DNA of 64,000 nucleotides from Lysobacter sp. KIS68-7 (GTDB lineage: Bacteria > Pseudomonadota > Gammaproteobacteria > Xanthomonadales > Xanthomonadaceae), in contig NZ_CP089925.1 of assembly GCF_021284745.1 (NCBI RefSeq), positions 1,921,001 to 1,985,000 on the forward strand. Direction: 5' to 3'. The translations under genes were made by a program, and so were the position numbers. This document shows, one piece after another, positions 10,023-61,694 of the stretch (position 1 is its first letter; each line of letters starts with the position of its first letter). The notes beneath the pieces were generated by a model, which ran no database searches, was not told the DNA's origin, and was given only the letters and a program-made list of their open reading frames with translations.

Positions 10023-10149
10023 GGACCGCCCCGCAGTCCGTTATCGCGCCTGTCGGAGCGCCTACAAGCCGCATCCTGCAACCGGAGCTCCGCCCGGGTG
10101 GCCATCCATGGCCGCCCTGCAGTCGCGACAACGGACTGCGTGTCGGTCC
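10023..10149. repeat. 127-bp imperfect palindrome in the 311-bp gap before the next gene
   Basis: The gap 9917-10227 holds the terminator and then this palindrome. Its outer 30 bases (10023-10052 and 10120-10149) pair at about 26 of 30 positions, and the centre is the perfect GGAGCTCC at 10084-10091. The right arm carries GCCATCCATGGC at 10101-10112, a 12-mer also present in the large palindrome near 60.5 kb. No open frame of its own is convincing. Bases 10150-10227 hold only the AGGAG site for the next gene. Confidence 0.75.
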
Positions 10150-31270: not shown

Positions 31271-31987
31271 ATGAGCAGGACGTTGCGGTTGTTGGCCGTA
31301 TCGTTGTTGTTGGCGGGCTGCGCGACGTCGCAGCCCGCGAGGCCGCGCGTTTCACCCGCGACCACACCGGAAGAAGCGGGGCTCGTCGACGTGCGTTCGC
31401 TGGTGCCCGACATCGAGCTCGACATGCGCTACGCGAGCGCGAACAACTTCACCGGTGCGCCGGTGGAGGGTTACGACGCGCCGCGCTGTTATCTGTTGCG
31501 GCCTGCGGCGGAAGCGTTGGCGAAGGTGGAACGCGCGCTGCGTGAGCGCCACATGCGATTGCGTTTGTACGATTGCTATCGCCCGGTGCGCGCGGTGCAG
31601 CGTTTCGTGGCGTGGACGCAGGCGCCGGAGGATGGGCGAACGAAGGCGGCGTATTACCCGGGGTTCGAGCGGCGCACTTTGTTGGGCGATTACATCGCGC
31701 CGACGTCGGGGCACAGTCGTGCGGCGACGGTGGATCTCGGGTTGTTGCAATGCGATGCGCAAGGGGCGGGGTGCGAGCCGATCGACATGGGCACGACGTT
31801 CGACTACTTCGATACGCTCGCGAATACGGATTCGCCGAAGGCGACTGCGCAGCAGCGCGCGAATCGACATGTGTTGGTGGACGCGATGGCGCAGGGCGGC
31901 TTTCGCAACTATCCGATGGAGTGGTGGCACTTCACCTTGAACCCGGAGCCGACGCCGGACGTGATGTACGACGTGCCGGTGCGGTGA
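31271..31987 (+). CDS. D-alanyl-D-alanine dipeptidase lipoprotein (VanX/DdpX type)
   Basis: Zinc peptidase of the M15D family, 238 residues, with a lipobox LLAGC near residue 17. Metal ligands are visible as SGHSRAATVDLG (His and Asp) and EWWHF (Glu and His), and the catalytic Arg region is YDCYRPVRAVQRF. Such enzymes split D-Ala-D-Ala; in VanX this supports glycopeptide resistance, but chromosomal copies more often recycle peptidoglycan. No van-type regulators or ligase are adjacent, so a cell-wall recycling role is more likely. ATG 31271 follows the signal peptide logic. Confidence 0.88.
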   Translation: MSRTLRLLAVSLLLAGCATSQPARPRVSPATTPEEAGLVDVRSLVPDIELDMRYASANNFTGAPVEGYDAPRCYLLRPAAEALAKVERALRERHMRLRLYDCYRPVRAVQRFVAWTQAPEDGRTKAAYYPGFERRTLLGDYIAPTSGHSRAATVDLGLLQCDAQGAGCEPIDMGTTFDYFDTLANTDSPKATAQQRANRHVLVDAMAQGGFRNYPMEWWHFTLNPEPTPDVMYDVPVR

Positions 31988-31994
31988 CAGCCTC

Positions 31995-32552
31995 CACCAG
32001 ATGGGCGGATCGCCATGAGGTGCCATGTGTGTCTTGTCCACTCCATACGACAAGTCGCGGCCAAGACACACACGACACCTCACGTCGCTCCGCTCGCGAT
32101 TTGACGATCTCGCGGAGCGTCTGGGGTCGTGGGCGCGTCGCCATCCATTCCATGCGCGCCTACACCGTAAATTCTGATGGACGGCCCGTCACCCACCTCG
32201 GCGCTGCGCCGTCGCGTGCGTCACCTTCGGCAGGCAACGTGCCTAGCGAGGTTTGTGAGCACGCCCCTTCGGACCGAAGGGGCGCCCCCTGAATTGATAT
32301 CTAGGCACCTTGCCCTCCGAAGCGGGACGCACATGCCGATGCAGCGAGCGAGGGGGCAAAGTGCCGTCCTTCCGTAGCCGGAAGTTGGCGCACGCGATCG
32401 CATCGCGGTCGCACGTGGCTCCCAGACGCTCCGCGCAAACATCAAGTCGCGAGCGGAGCGACGCGAGACGTCGTGTGTGTCTTGGCCGCGACTTGTCGTA
32501 TGGAGTGGACAAGACACACACGACGGCTCGTGGCGGTCCGCCCATCTTGTGG
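31995..32552. repeat. Giant imperfect palindrome, about 558 bp, between convergent genes
   Basis: The 577-base gap 31988-32564 is almost entirely one inverted repeat with its axis at 32273. A 50-base block at 32027-32076 is repeated exactly, inverted, at 32470-32519. GTGCCTAG (32239-32246) mirrors CTAGGCAC (32301-32308). The centre is a perfect 11-bp stem with one unpaired base (32262-32284). Each arm also has an internal hairpin, GTGTGTCTTG with CAAGACACAC. There is no transposase and no convincing open frame. It sits between the stop of the dipeptidase gene and the stop of the convergent Cys-rich gene. Confidence 0.88.
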
Positions 32553-32564
32553 AGCGCGGGCAGC

Positions 32565-57542: not shown

Positions 57543-59390
57543 ATGACGTCCCTGAAGTCGTCGACATCGCTCCTGGCCCTGTTCGCGCTGCTGCTCGCGC
57601 TGGCCGCCTGCGAAGGCGCGCGCGACAAGGCCCGCGCGCGCCAGGAAGCCGGTCGCAATCCGCAGGTCACCATCAGCGGGGAAGAGGCCGTGTTGGTGCC
57701 CGCGTGGCAGCCGCCGGCGGTGGAGATCGCGAGTGGCGAGGAACCGAAAGTCCTCGCCGAGGCGAAGAAGGCGCTCGACGAGGATCGCCTGTTCGGCGGC
57801 GAGCGCGACGCGGTGCCCCTGTTGCTGGAACTGCGCGCGCGAATGCCGGACGACCCCGAGGTCGCACGCATGCAGGCGCGCGCCGTGAAGCAACTGATCG
57901 TCCAGGGCGATGCCGCGCTCGAAGACATGGACATGGATCCCGACGCCCTGCGGCGTGCGCACGAGATCGGCGAAGTCGCGCGCACCGCGGCGGGCGACGA
58001 TCCCGCCGTGCGCGCGTTCCTCTCTCGCGTCGACGGTGCGGACCAATCCGTGAAGCTCGATGTGCTCGGCGAACGCGAATTCGCCGCCGGGCGCATGGGC
58101 GGCGAGAAGGAAGGCGAGGGCGCGCTGGCCTATTTTCGCGAAGCCATGCGTGGACGCCCCGGCGACGCGCGCGCGGCGCAGGGCATCGCGGCGGTGGAAA
58201 GCAACATGATCCGGCACGCCGAAGATGCCGCGGCGCGGGCCGACTTCGGTGAGTCCGATCGCTGGCTCGCCATCGCCGGCAAGGTGCGCCCCGGCGCGGA
58301 CACGGTGGCGGATGCGCGCCAGCGCATCGCGATGGTGCGCCGCCTGCGCGTGGATGCCTTGCGCGACGAGGGCGTGGCCGCGTTGATGCGCGAAGGCGGC
58401 CTGCCGCAGGCGCGTCGCGTGTTGTCCGAGATGTTGCGCATCGCAGCGCCCGGCGATCCGGCGGCGTCGGAATTGCGCGAACGCATCGACCTGGTCGCGC
58501 ACTACGGCCTGTTCCGCCCCGGCCAGGTGTTCACCGACGCGCTGCGCAGCGGTGCGCGCGGGCCGCAGATGGTGGTCGTCCCGCACGGCGGATTCCTGAT
58601 GGGCGCGCGCGACGGCGAAACCGATGGCCGGCCCGCCGAGCGTCCTTCGCATTACGTGCGCTTCGATCGCGGCTTCGCGATGGCGCGGACGGAAACCACG
58701 GTGGGCGAGTTCCGTCGTTTCATCGACGCCACGCAATACCGCAGCCGCGCCGTGCGCCGCGGACATTCGATCGTGTACGACGAAAGCAGCGGCAACCTGG
58801 TGCGCCGGAGCAACGTGGACTGGCGCCACACGTACACCGGCGCGCTCGCCACCGACGACATGCCCGTGCTGCACGTCAGCGCACGTGACGCCGAAGCCTA
58901 TGCGCACTGGCTCTCGCAACAGACCGGGGAGCGTTACGCGCTGCCGAGCGAAGCCCAGTTCGAATACGCGGTGCGTGCAGGCACGGTCGGGCCCTTGCCT
59001 TGGGAGTCGCGCATCCCGCCGCGCAGCGCCGGCAACGTCACCGGCGGACTCGACCGTTCGCCCACCGGTCGCCAATGGCACAACGCGTTCGCAGGCTATG
59101 GCGATGGCTATTGGGGCCCCGCGCCGGCGGGCGCGTTCGCGCCGAATGCATTCGGTCTTCACGACCTGGCCGGCAACGTCAGCGAGTGGGTGGCCGACTG
59201 CTGGCACGAGGGCTACCGCCGCGCGCCGACCGACGGCCAACCCTGGGTCAACCCGGGGTGTCGCCAGCGCGTGATCCGCGGCGGCTCGTGGTTGAGCGCG
59301 CCGGCGCAAGTGCGTTCGGCGTGGCGTTTGTCGACGGATGGCGACACCACCAATGCGCGGCTGGGCTTCCGCCTCGTACGGGAGCTGTAA
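57543..59390 (+). CDS. Lipoprotein with formylglycine-enzyme-like domain
   Basis: Protein of 615 residues with lipobox ALAAC near residue 19. The N-terminal half (to about 340) is helical and TPR-like. The C-terminal half is an FGE-sulfatase (SUMF1) fold: GFLMGARDGETDGRPAE, ALPSEAQFEYAVRAG and FGLHDLAGNVSEWVADCW. The catalytic Cys of true formylglycine enzymes is missing: the usual CRSA is VRSA here. A binding or structural role, as in many such domains, is more likely than sulfatase activation. Divergent from rnd across 94 bases. Confidence 0.85.
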   Translation: MTSLKSSTSLLALFALLLALAACEGARDKARARQEAGRNPQVTISGEEAVLVPAWQPPAVEIASGEEPKVLAEAKKALDEDRLFGGERDAVPLLLELRARMPDDPEVARMQARAVKQLIVQGDAALEDMDMDPDALRRAHEIGEVARTAAGDDPAVRAFLSRVDGADQSVKLDVLGEREFAAGRMGGEKEGEGALAYFREAMRGRPGDARAAQGIAAVESNMIRHAEDAAARADFGESDRWLAIAGKVRPGADTVADARQRIAMVRRLRVDALRDEGVAALMREGGLPQARRVLSEMLRIAAPGDPAASELRERIDLVAHYGLFRPGQVFTDALRSGARGPQMVVVPHGGFLMGARDGETDGRPAERPSHYVRFDRGFAMARTETTVGEFRRFIDATQYRSRAVRRGHSIVYDESSGNLVRRSNVDWRHTYTGALATDDMPVLHVSARDAEAYAHWLSQQTGERYALPSEAQFEYAVRAGTVGPLPWESRIPPRSAGNVTGGLDRSPTGRQWHNAFAGYGDGYWGPAPAGAFAPNAFGLHDLAGNVSEWVADCWHEGYRRAPTDGQPWVNPGCRQRVIRGGSWLSAPAQVRSAWRLSTDGDTTNARLGFRLVREL

Positions 59391-59412
59391 GTCGCACTCA
59401 CGGGAGAAGGCG

Positions 59413-60300
59413 ATGTCGATGGATCCGAACCAAGGGCAGCAGCGGCGCGGCATCGGCGGCGGTGGCATCCGCTGGTGGGTGTTGCTGCTGTTCGCCGGTT
59501 ACGCGGGCTATTACTGGCTCTCCAACCGCAGCACCGACCCGCTCACCGGCGAAACGGTGATGATCGACAAGAACATTTCGCCCGACGACGAGAAAGCCCT
59601 CGGCCTGCAGGCGTGGCAGGAGTTGCTCACCACCGAACATCCGTTGCCGCCGAGCGACCCGAATGCGCAAGCGATCCGCGGGATCGCCCAACGTCTGATC
59701 GCGAAGATCCCCGAGGTGTCCGACGCACTCGCGGCCGAGCACAACCTGCAGGCGCAGCACATCGAGAAGTCCTTCGACTGGGAAGTGAACGTGCTGCAGT
59801 CCGACCAGGTGAATGCCTTCTGCCTGCCGGGCGGGAAGATGGCGGTGTACACGGGCCTGATCCCGGTGGCGCAGAACAACGACGCGATGGCGATCGTGAT
59901 GGGTCATGAGATCACGCATGCGTTGTTGCGGCATGGGGCGCAGCGGATGACGGAGCAGAAGCTGGCGCAGATCGGGCAGATGGCGGGTGCGATGAGTGGG
60001 ATGGATCAGTCGCAGATGCAGGCGGTGATGTCGGTCTACGGGTATGGGCGTGCGTTGCCTTATGCGCGGAAGCAGGAGTCGCAGGCGGATGAGATGGGTT
60101 TGATGCTCGCTGCGGCTGCGTGCTTCAACCCGGAGGAGGCGATTCCGTTGTGGCAGCGGATGGATGCTTCCAGCGGTGGCAATGCGCCGCCCGAGTTCGC
60201 GTCGACGCATCCGAATCCTGGGACGCGCATCCAGAATCTCCAGGCGTTGATGCCGAAGGCGATGGAGTATCGGAAGCGGTTTTGCGAGACGGCGAAATAG
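59413..60300 (+). CDS. M48-family metalloprotease
   Basis: Membrane-anchored zinc protease of 295 residues. One N-terminal hydrophobic segment (about 20-36) is followed by the M48 domain, with the zinc site GHEITHALLRHG and the third ligand Glu in QESQADEMG. This is the BepA/LoiP type, acting on envelope proteins. ATG 59413 is used; an ATG two codons later is equivalent. It follows the FGE-like lipoprotein by 22 bases, and its end faces the giant palindrome. Confidence 0.9.
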   Translation: MSMDPNQGQQRRGIGGGGIRWWVLLLFAGYAGYYWLSNRSTDPLTGETVMIDKNISPDDEKALGLQAWQELLTTEHPLPPSDPNAQAIRGIAQRLIAKIPEVSDALAAEHNLQAQHIEKSFDWEVNVLQSDQVNAFCLPGGKMAVYTGLIPVAQNNDAMAIVMGHEITHALLRHGAQRMTEQKLAQIGQMAGAMSGMDQSQMQAVMSVYGYGRALPYARKQESQADEMGLMLAAAACFNPEEAIPLWQRMDASSGGNAPPEFASTHPNPGTRIQNLQALMPKAMEYRKRFCETAK

Positions 60301-60324
60301 GCCGGAAGCCTCCACCCGAAGGGC

Positions 60325-60950
60325 GCGCTGACCCGCCGCGGCGTTTGTTCCCTTTCTCCGCGGAGGGCACTTCGGGCCCGCCTTTACGCTCCGAAAGGGA
60401 ACAAACGCCGCGGCGGGCCATCGCGCTCACAATGCGAGCGTCCGCGCGAAGCCCAACGCAACTTCATTCGGCCGGCGGTCCGCTTCCCACCAAAAGAATC
60501 CCGACCCTCTCTCGGAAACGCCATCCATGGCCACCGAGTTCGGATCGTTGCCCATCCATGGGCAACTCCCGGGATTCTTTTGGTGGGAATCGGACCTTCG
60601 CGGCGATGCGGGAATCACACCGCTTCGGCGCAAAGCTTTTGGCTTCCGAAGCGGTGATCCATCAATTCATTGCGAAGGTCTGCTTCCCATCAAAGCAATC
60701 CCGGGAACTGCCCATGGATGGGCAGTGATCCGAGCTCGGTGGCCATGGATGGTCTTCCGAGTGAGGGTCGGGATTGCTTTGATGGGGAGCAGACCGCCCT
60801 GGAAGATGGAGGGCGGTGGGTTTCGCGCGAATCGAACAAATCGCGTGCGCGTTGGCCCGTCGCGGCGTTGATCCCTTTTCGGAGCGTCGCTCCTGCGGAG
60901 AAAAGGGATCAACGTCGCGGCGGGTCCGACGCGCCCGTCGGGTGGCGCAG
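60325..60950. repeat. Giant nested palindrome, about 620 bp, between convergent genes
   Basis: The 653-base gap 60301-60953 is one large imperfect inverted repeat centred near 60636, in the order A-B-C-B'-A'. A is a perfect 24-bp stem (60332-60355 with 60394-60417). B has a 27-bp stem with one mismatch (60477-60503 with 60570-60596) enclosing two small hairpins, including GTTGCCCA with TGGGCAAC. C is ACCGCTTCGG with CCGAAGCGGT (60619-60655) inside a 9-bp stem. B' (60678-60794) and A' (60856-60924) are mirrored relatives. No transposase and no convincing gene are present. Confidence 0.9.
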
Positions 60951-60953
60951 GCT

Positions 60954-61694
60954 TTAGAAGCTCATGAACAGACCACCATTCACCGGCACATTCGCACCAG
61001 TAATGAAGCCCGCATCATCGTTCGTCAGGAATTCCACGGTACGCGCGATCTCGGAAGGCTTGCCCAACCGACCCACCGGCACACTCTCGACGATCTTGGC
61101 GCGGATCTCGTCCGGCACCTTCATGACCATCGCCGTCTCGCAATAACCCGGCGACACACTGTTGACCGTCACACCCTTGCGCGCCACTTCCCGCGCCAGC
61201 GCCATCGTGAACCCGTGCATCCCCGCCTTCGCGGCCGAATAGTTCGTCTGTCCGAACTGCCCCGTCTGCCCGTTTACCGAACTGATGTTGACGATGCGGC
61301 CGAAACCGCGCGTCGTCATGCCATCGACGACCTGGCGGCACATGTTGAACACGCCGTCGAGGTTGATGTTCATCACCGCATCCCAGTCGGTGCGCTCCAT
61401 CTTGCGCAGCGTGGTGTCGCGCGTGATGCCCGCGGCGTTCACCAGGATGTCGACGCCGCCATGCTGCGCTTCGATCTCGCGCACGAGGGCGGCGCAGGCG
61501 TCGAAGTCGCCGACGTTGCCGGGGGCGAAATGGATGTCGAGGCCTTCGACGTCCTTGCGGAATTCCGCGATGCGGTCTTCGCGGGCGGCGAGGTCGGTCG
61601 CCACCACGGTGCGCCCGGCACGGGCGAGGGTCTTGCAGATCTCGGTGCCGAGACCGCCGATGCCGCCGGTCACGACGGCCACGCGCTTGCTCAT
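60954..61694 (-). CDS. Acetoacetyl-CoA reductase-type SDR (first copy)
   Basis: NADPH-dependent short-chain reductase of 246 residues. The nucleotide site is VVTGGIGGLGTEIC; the catalytic Ser, Tyr and Lys are in ISSVNGQTGQFGQTNYSAAK. The MHGFTMALAREVARKGVTVN and MVMKVPDEIRAKIV blocks are typical of PhaB/PhbB. It would make 3-hydroxybutyryl-CoA for polyhydroxyalkanoate. The second copy lies beyond phaR; a phaC synthase is not in the window. A generic FabG role is possible. Confidence 0.85.
   Translation of the reverse strand: MSKRVAVVTGGIGGLGTEICKTLARAGRTVVATDLAAREDRIAEFRKDVEGLDIHFAPGNVGDFDACAALVREIEAQHGGVDILVNAAGITRDTTLRKMERTDWDAVMNINLDGVFNMCRQVVDGMTTRGFGRIVNISSVNGQTGQFGQTNYSAAKAGMHGFTMALAREVARKGVTVNSVSPGYCETAMVMKVPDEIRAKIVESVPVGRLGKPSEIARTVEFLTNDDAGFITGANVPVNGGLFMSF

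Follow-up and report, generated by a model that had tools for sequence, protein, structure and literature searches.

The nested palindrome that fills a convergent intergenic gap in this Lysobacter genome is a pair of outward-facing copies of one non-coding compound repeat; from a shared centre, C, each copy runs through a B unit and then an A unit. Moreover, each B unit is a self-contained element, a stem of ~25-35 bp whose Y-shaped head comprises two short hairpins (~125 nt in total), and the two tips of this head match the RsmA/CsrA site, points that the first-pass annotation of the window (the whole stretch of 64,000 nucleotides that was analysed) had missed. The B element belongs to a dispersed family with covarying stems and a strand-specific pattern of wobble pairs. 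On the evidence of sequence, it is moderately probable that the element is a strand-specific structured RNA offering CsrA two sites on one head; titration, by scattered copies serving as a decoy or sponge for CsrA/RsmA, would be the likely effect of these paired sites.

Anatomy of the palindromic block

The A-B-C-B'-A' palindrome that the first-pass annotation had described is real: all of its arms, the half-to-half mirror and the central hairpin were recovered (Table 1). An inverted-repeat search followed by a pair-by-pair check gives A arms (60323-60356/60393-60426) that are 32/34 identical, the final 25 bp being perfect where a perfect 24-bp stem had been reported, and the 27-bp stem reported for B has arms (60477-60503/60570-60596) identical at 26 of 27 positions. 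The B' arms (60677-60703/60769-60795) are likewise 26/27 identical, and the A' arms (60856-60880/60900-60924) 23/25. The two halves of the block mirror each other through 81-nt arms (60521-60601/60672-60752; 88% complementary) around an axis at ~60636.5, and the spacers also pair. Over 661 nt, the + strand folds to -493 kcal/mol (z -32.9) and the - strand has a fold z of -23.6, with 0/20 shuffles as good in either case. Paired bases run from 5 bases past one stop codon into the other, leaving the convergent gap almost completely filled, and the symmetry extends beyond the span first annotated. A scan for long hairpins, run at lowered thresholds because a stricter setting missed known elements, found six non-overlapping hairpins in the window and none in any of 10 Markov-resampled windows.

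Table 1. Features of the block, its flanking genes and related elements in the window
Feature	Position	Strand	Basis or remark
Whole nested palindrome A-B-C-B'-A'	60305-60955	.	fold z -32.9; 74% match to its own reverse complement over 649 nt; ORFs
A hairpin, 34-nt arms	60323-60426	- (inferred functional strand)	inverted repeats; 1 A.C on + strand
B element, 27-bp stem and Y head	60477-60596	-	inverted repeats; R2 E 1.4e-18, - strand
B tips	60521-60531, 60552-60562	-	CATGGATG on - strand, reading CATCCATG on +
C, central hairpin CACCGCTTCGG...CCGAAGCGGTG, where both units meet	60618-60656	.	reading and fold
B' element, 27-bp stem and Y head	60677-60795	+	inverted repeats; R2 E 1.8e-15, + strand
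B' tips	60711-60721, 60742-60752	+	CATGGATG on + strand
A' hairpin, 25-nt arms	60856-60924	+	both (2) non-Watson-Crick pairs are G.U on +
M48-type peptidase gene	59338-60300	+	flanks the block; named from reading of the translation
Acetoacetyl-CoA-reductase-like gene	60954-61694	-	other flank; named from reading of the translation
Single B-type element, H1 subfamily	10023-10149	-	144.5 bits
A-like long hairpin, left of another outward-facing pair	32005-32093	-	3 A.C on +
A-like long hairpin, right of the same pair	32453-32541	+	1 G.T on +

The left half of the block (A-B-half C) has a second copy 17 kb away in the same genome (317 nt matched at 94%), and a weaker pairing of A with B lies at 1701248; we therefore read the block as a single compound unit duplicated in inverted orientation. 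The other outward-facing pair in the window (31985-32560) has a different head, with ~360 bp between its hairpins and a middle rich in inverted repeats.

Dispersal, occupied sites and empty sites

A search with the tip sequence (a pattern ending in CCATCCATGGCCGCCCT) returned 16 near-identical heads elsewhere in this genome (G000; finished, 3.25 Mb), of which 13 were aligned; the head is almost invariant and the stem switches in compensated blocks. A covariance model built from 18 of the G000 elements with near-identical heads (R1) finds 28 places in the genome, among them the one at 1701457 and four with a second type of head, and matches 10 of 198 genomes of the family. A second model, R2, built from 31 diverse elements, locates 31 clear sites and a single weak one, and all four sampled congeners (G001-G004) are positive, with 17, 6, 2 and 14 matches, respectively (E up to 0.01). 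Across the family, R2 matches at least 120 of 297 genomes and at least 28 of 54 genera (E up to 0.001, 11 candidates scored per genome); a class-wide sample gave matches in 14 of 369 genomes, 11 of them outside the family. Both models include the tip sequence, and the loci displayed (L-numbers) are the best-scoring ones: of the seven displayed from outside the family, five have a pair of CA(N)GGAYG strings on the same strand, although one of the five (L283) has no long stem, and the remaining two have just one string. A plain DNA search of 199 relatives returned, outside this genome, only short weak matches, and a model-free hairpin scan of 1.36 Mb returned 23 long-loop hairpins, of which the 5 that carry tips come from G000 and G004.

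Within the near-identical-head subfamily of G000, all six close pairs join stem type a (GGACCG...) to stem type b (GGCCTG...), and type b is never solitary; the amplified stem type differs genome by genome. Of the 20 pairs of neighbouring elements in the genus, 16 face outward, 4 (all in G004) are in tandem and none faces inward. A separate observation is that 21 of 24 B-type sites, pairs being counted as one, lie in the second half of the G000 contig (p 0.0003), the start of which is not at dnaA.

The block had been called insertion-like and, among other suggestions, a non-coding mobile element, and both descriptions stand. The gap measures 15, 65, 121 and 129 bp in the four congeners and the element is absent from all of them. 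Six more G000 loci were queried, three of which proved informative, the other three giving no two-flank match; the informative sites are empty in 4/4, 4/4 and 3/4 congeners. Over four syntenic sites and four congeners the element is therefore absent in 15 of 16 cases, the sixteenth being a congener in which the flanks lie ~1 kb apart. Taken with the half copy at a distance of 17 kb and the dispersed B-type relatives, these empty sites indicate that the B family is apparently a mobile element. The first-pass annotation had also allowed that the units might be confined to one locus or that the symmetry might come from the assembly; in fact the B family is dispersed in the genome and in its relatives, and an assembly artefact is ruled out by the half copy and by relatives that differ in stems and flanks.

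An enzyme presumably spreads the family. The Y1 transposases (PF01797) were the sole transposase family searched, with 0 matches in G000 and a positive control in 5/14 genomes, and mobilization by a RAYT was rejected for this genome. Alignments of three sites gave no clear target-site duplication. At 33 loci with a placeable neighbour gene, four of which re-cover the congeners, no gap holds a CATCCATG-type tip. G001 and G002 have other inverted repeats in the syntenic gap. G001 possesses another long inverted-repeat family, of CGGGAAACG units (L154 7056-7180, L099, L121 and L166), with one copy in that gap; G002 has TTGAAGGCCACATTGC hairpins with a TCCGCAAGAGCTC loop, three in 20 kb (L158 2834-2901, 4160-4211 and 9034-9093), which form an A-type family. 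By eye, the same gap in G016, of another genus, holds a different nested palindrome (L124 2279-3039), its outer hairpins being of the TTACTTTTCTTTGC type and its tips of the CATCCATG type, which gives the gap the look of a recurrent target for such elements.

Covariation and strand polarity

Across 31 diverse B elements, 42 of 49 pairs show two-sided changes and 83.8% of cells pair. The covariation score is 0.458, as against 0.150 +/- 0.009 for shuffled alignments (0/500 as high) and a maximum of 0.147 for slid versions; the elements are kin, so that element counts do not equal independent events. In the main stem (20 pairs), 93.9% of cells are paired though many columns hold four or more pair types, and stem sequences are wholly different between subfamilies with pairing retained. 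Alignment is poorer in the head helices (67-91%). By eye, many elements have an A.G or G.A mismatch at the seventh pair counted from the stem base, even where their stem sequences are unrelated.

The mismatches distinguish the two strands. In 50 elements, the stem mismatches on the CATCC strand comprise 57 A.C and 3 G.T, many of the 57 being shared by descent, with at least 20 separate positions and stem types contributing (by eye). The symmetry of DNA alone would lead to equal numbers of G.T and A.C; the CATGG strand is thus the one carrying the G.U wobbles. In a second set, with 25 elements drawn from as many genomes, the count is 24 G.U to 3 A.C, or 23 to 3 when L253, which is the training element L080, is left out. 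Twelve additional congener loci give a polarity of 18:1; three of these loci (L236, L243 and L238) repeat elements already covered, and L244 is not orientable by its tips. Eight informative, hand-picked A-type hairpins, including A, A' and the 32005/32453 pair, give 16:0 on the GGAG-loop strand. Judged by their G.U-bearing strands, the halves of the block point outward from C. Covariation and strand-specific G.U pairs bear out the structured RNA that was among the first suggestions for this block. Correction of the palindrome as DNA only was considered as well: A1, with two-sided changes only and no one-sided ones, alone hinted at it, but the one-sided G.U changes of the diverse set and the strong polarity led to its rejection.

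A DNA element of the REP or MITE kind, in which a single-stranded hairpin would be recognized by a transposase and the RNA would have no function, is in our estimate unlikely. It would account for the dispersed copies, for lineage-specific insertions flush with stop codons, for inverted pairs as in REPINs, for an amplified stem type peculiar to each genome and for the two-sided changes of A1; the polarity would then reflect the DNA strand that is processed, with G.T mismatches being tolerated or arising by deamination. However, the genome has no Y1 transposase, one-sided G.U changes do exist in the diverse set, and the tips vary only where the RsmA motif permits. Moreover, both orientations occur in the same places, which argues against a simple replication-strand bias.

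Another possibility is a 3'-end element, either a bidirectional terminator, as the first-pass annotation had proposed, or an exonuclease-blocking hairpin for convergent mRNAs, with the tips incidental. The stems are extremely stable on both strands and, by crude gene calls, many copies fill convergent gaps, ~15-60 bp from the stop codons. Yet the G.U signature is found on one strand only, the three terminator-like sites in the block (as against 0.9 in shuffles) are all inside B or B', and no plain hairpin-plus-T-run is present at the block ends, observations which lend no support to bidirectional termination as the main function. The loop of the tip-bearing elements is also far more conserved than a terminator or a stabilizer needs, the congeners manage without the element at the same gaps, and two copies, a single one at L040 and the one at 10023 in the window, are situated past an ordinary terminator. 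We regard a 3'-end role as quite improbable.

Tips of the head and the RsmA/CsrA site

On the G.U-bearing strand, two loops are exposed per head. All 50 elements of the first set have two CA(N)GGA(N)G strings, as against 0/50 on the opposite strand and 0/2000 among resampled sequences, and both tips are closed by at least three pairs in 45/50; the GGA loops of H1 branch 1 are weakly closed in 5/50. The tip variants of this set are CATGGATG (79 instances), CAGGATG (12) and four others found once each, and the commonest tip is GGCC-AUGGAU-GGCC. In the second set, 48/50 tips fit CA(N)GGAYG, where N is T, G, A or absent and Y is T or C, the misses being CCGGATG and CGTGGATG. Where two strings are present (70/73 elements), the spacing between the two sites is 25-43 nt, with a median of 32. 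Earlier work gives CANGGAYG as the consensus for RsmA of P. aeruginosa and AUGGAUG as the CLIP motif in E. coli (PMC7705225; also PMC5694010), and describes the CsrA dimer as having two binding surfaces (PMC7366521). As the models include the tips, the search itself selects in part for tip conservation; what stands apart from this selection is the choice of variable positions, together with the location of the motif on the strand of the G.U wobbles.

A csrA gene is present in this genome. At gathering score, the only Rfam match in the window is a tRNA, with none for the block; with E up to 10, the block has 15 sub-threshold matches, none of them to Csr/Rsm families, the best being mir-8515 with 47 bits against a gathering score of 100. 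With no match at gathering score, a known RNA family was rejected as the identity of the block.

A structured RNA serving some other protein, one that prefers GGA-containing or CCATGG-type loops, would fit all of the structural evidence equally well, as well as the sequence of the commonest tip, and the published RsmA/CsrA site was defined in other genera. Still, the variation permitted in the tips is that of the RsmA consensus, and two sites per head suit a dimer with two binding surfaces (PMC7366521). We consider such a protein very unlikely.

We return to CsrA as the candidate partner. No sigma-70-like promoter was found in 60290-60970, C included, which makes read-through of neighbouring transcripts the simplest source of the RNA; promoters of a kind not recognized here could also produce it. 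A CsrA dimer would be bound on the two tips of one head, with the long stem shielding the RNA and displaying that head, and many copies would act jointly as a decoy, or sponge, for CsrA/RsmA. Two points tell against this model: the 660-nt fold would mask the local hairpins in any transcript that spans both halves, and crude gene calls, by which the upstream gene is co-directional in 30/48 copies, show no clean rule of orientation.

The proposed role would resemble that of CsrB/CsrC and RsmX/RsmY/RsmZ, which, like B, display several GGA motifs in short hairpin loops, with the motif CA(N)GGAYG. Those RNAs, however, come from one to few genes per genome, with promoters of their own and no long variable stem, whereas the B family consists of tens of dispersed copies with two sites each, no recognizable promoter and no Rfam match at gathering score. 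In Xanthomonas, no CsrB or RsmX/Y/Z homologue was found by others, in a study which describes RsmU as a 3'-UTR-derived sponge for RsmA (PMC7694677). RsmU of Xanthomonas campestris, a product of a 3' UTR, belongs to the same bacterial family and binds RsmA, and it has GGA motifs, as does B; it differs in being single-copy, conserved in sequence across Xanthomonas only and not a dispersed hairpin (PMC7694677). By the same account, RsmU retained RsmA binding and function when each of its four predicted GGA motifs was replaced (PMC7694677), and GGA loops alone are thus no proof of RsmA binding.

As dispersed DNA, the B family recalls REP, BIME and REPIN sequences, which are multi-copy extragenic palindromes, often in inverted pairs. 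REPs differ in being 20-40 bp long, with conserved stems and GTAG or CGTC ends (PMC3733652). A B element, in contrast, has ~125 nt, a variable stem and a conserved Y head, and the genome has no RAYT-type transposase. NEMIS, ERIC and other MITE-like hairpin repeats are also similar, as non-coding units of 100-160 bp that form hairpins at gene ends; these have conserved terminal repeats, whereas the B family has free stems and a conserved branched head. CsrA sponges are known and so are dispersed palindromes; their combination is undescribed in the open-access literature searched, in which we found no description of these elements.

More tentatively, RsmA/CsrA could be controlled in much of the Xanthomonadaceae by a transposing repeat instead of a dedicated sRNA gene, with a two-site RNA hairpin gained at every insertion and the copy number of insertions setting the level of titration; this is a possibility to which we give limited credence. 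The repeat may then be selfish, CsrA protecting its RNA or the RNA of the host gene, and may have been co-opted as the missing sponge. Under such a regime selection would act on pairing only, and the sequence of the long stems could vary freely.

CsrA/RsmA is a global regulator, for which no antagonist of the CsrB/RsmZ type has been recognized in this family of bacteria (PMC7694677, for Xanthomonas). If the repeats bind it, a large, overlooked class of intergenic DNA, found in at least 28 genera, would serve as a regulatory sponge evolving through transposition, and the long-standing question of the role of dispersed palindromes in bacteria would become open to direct test. Leaving CsrA aside, the family is new in itself: a strand-specific, covarying RNA that Rfam lacks, its branched head fixed and its stems free.
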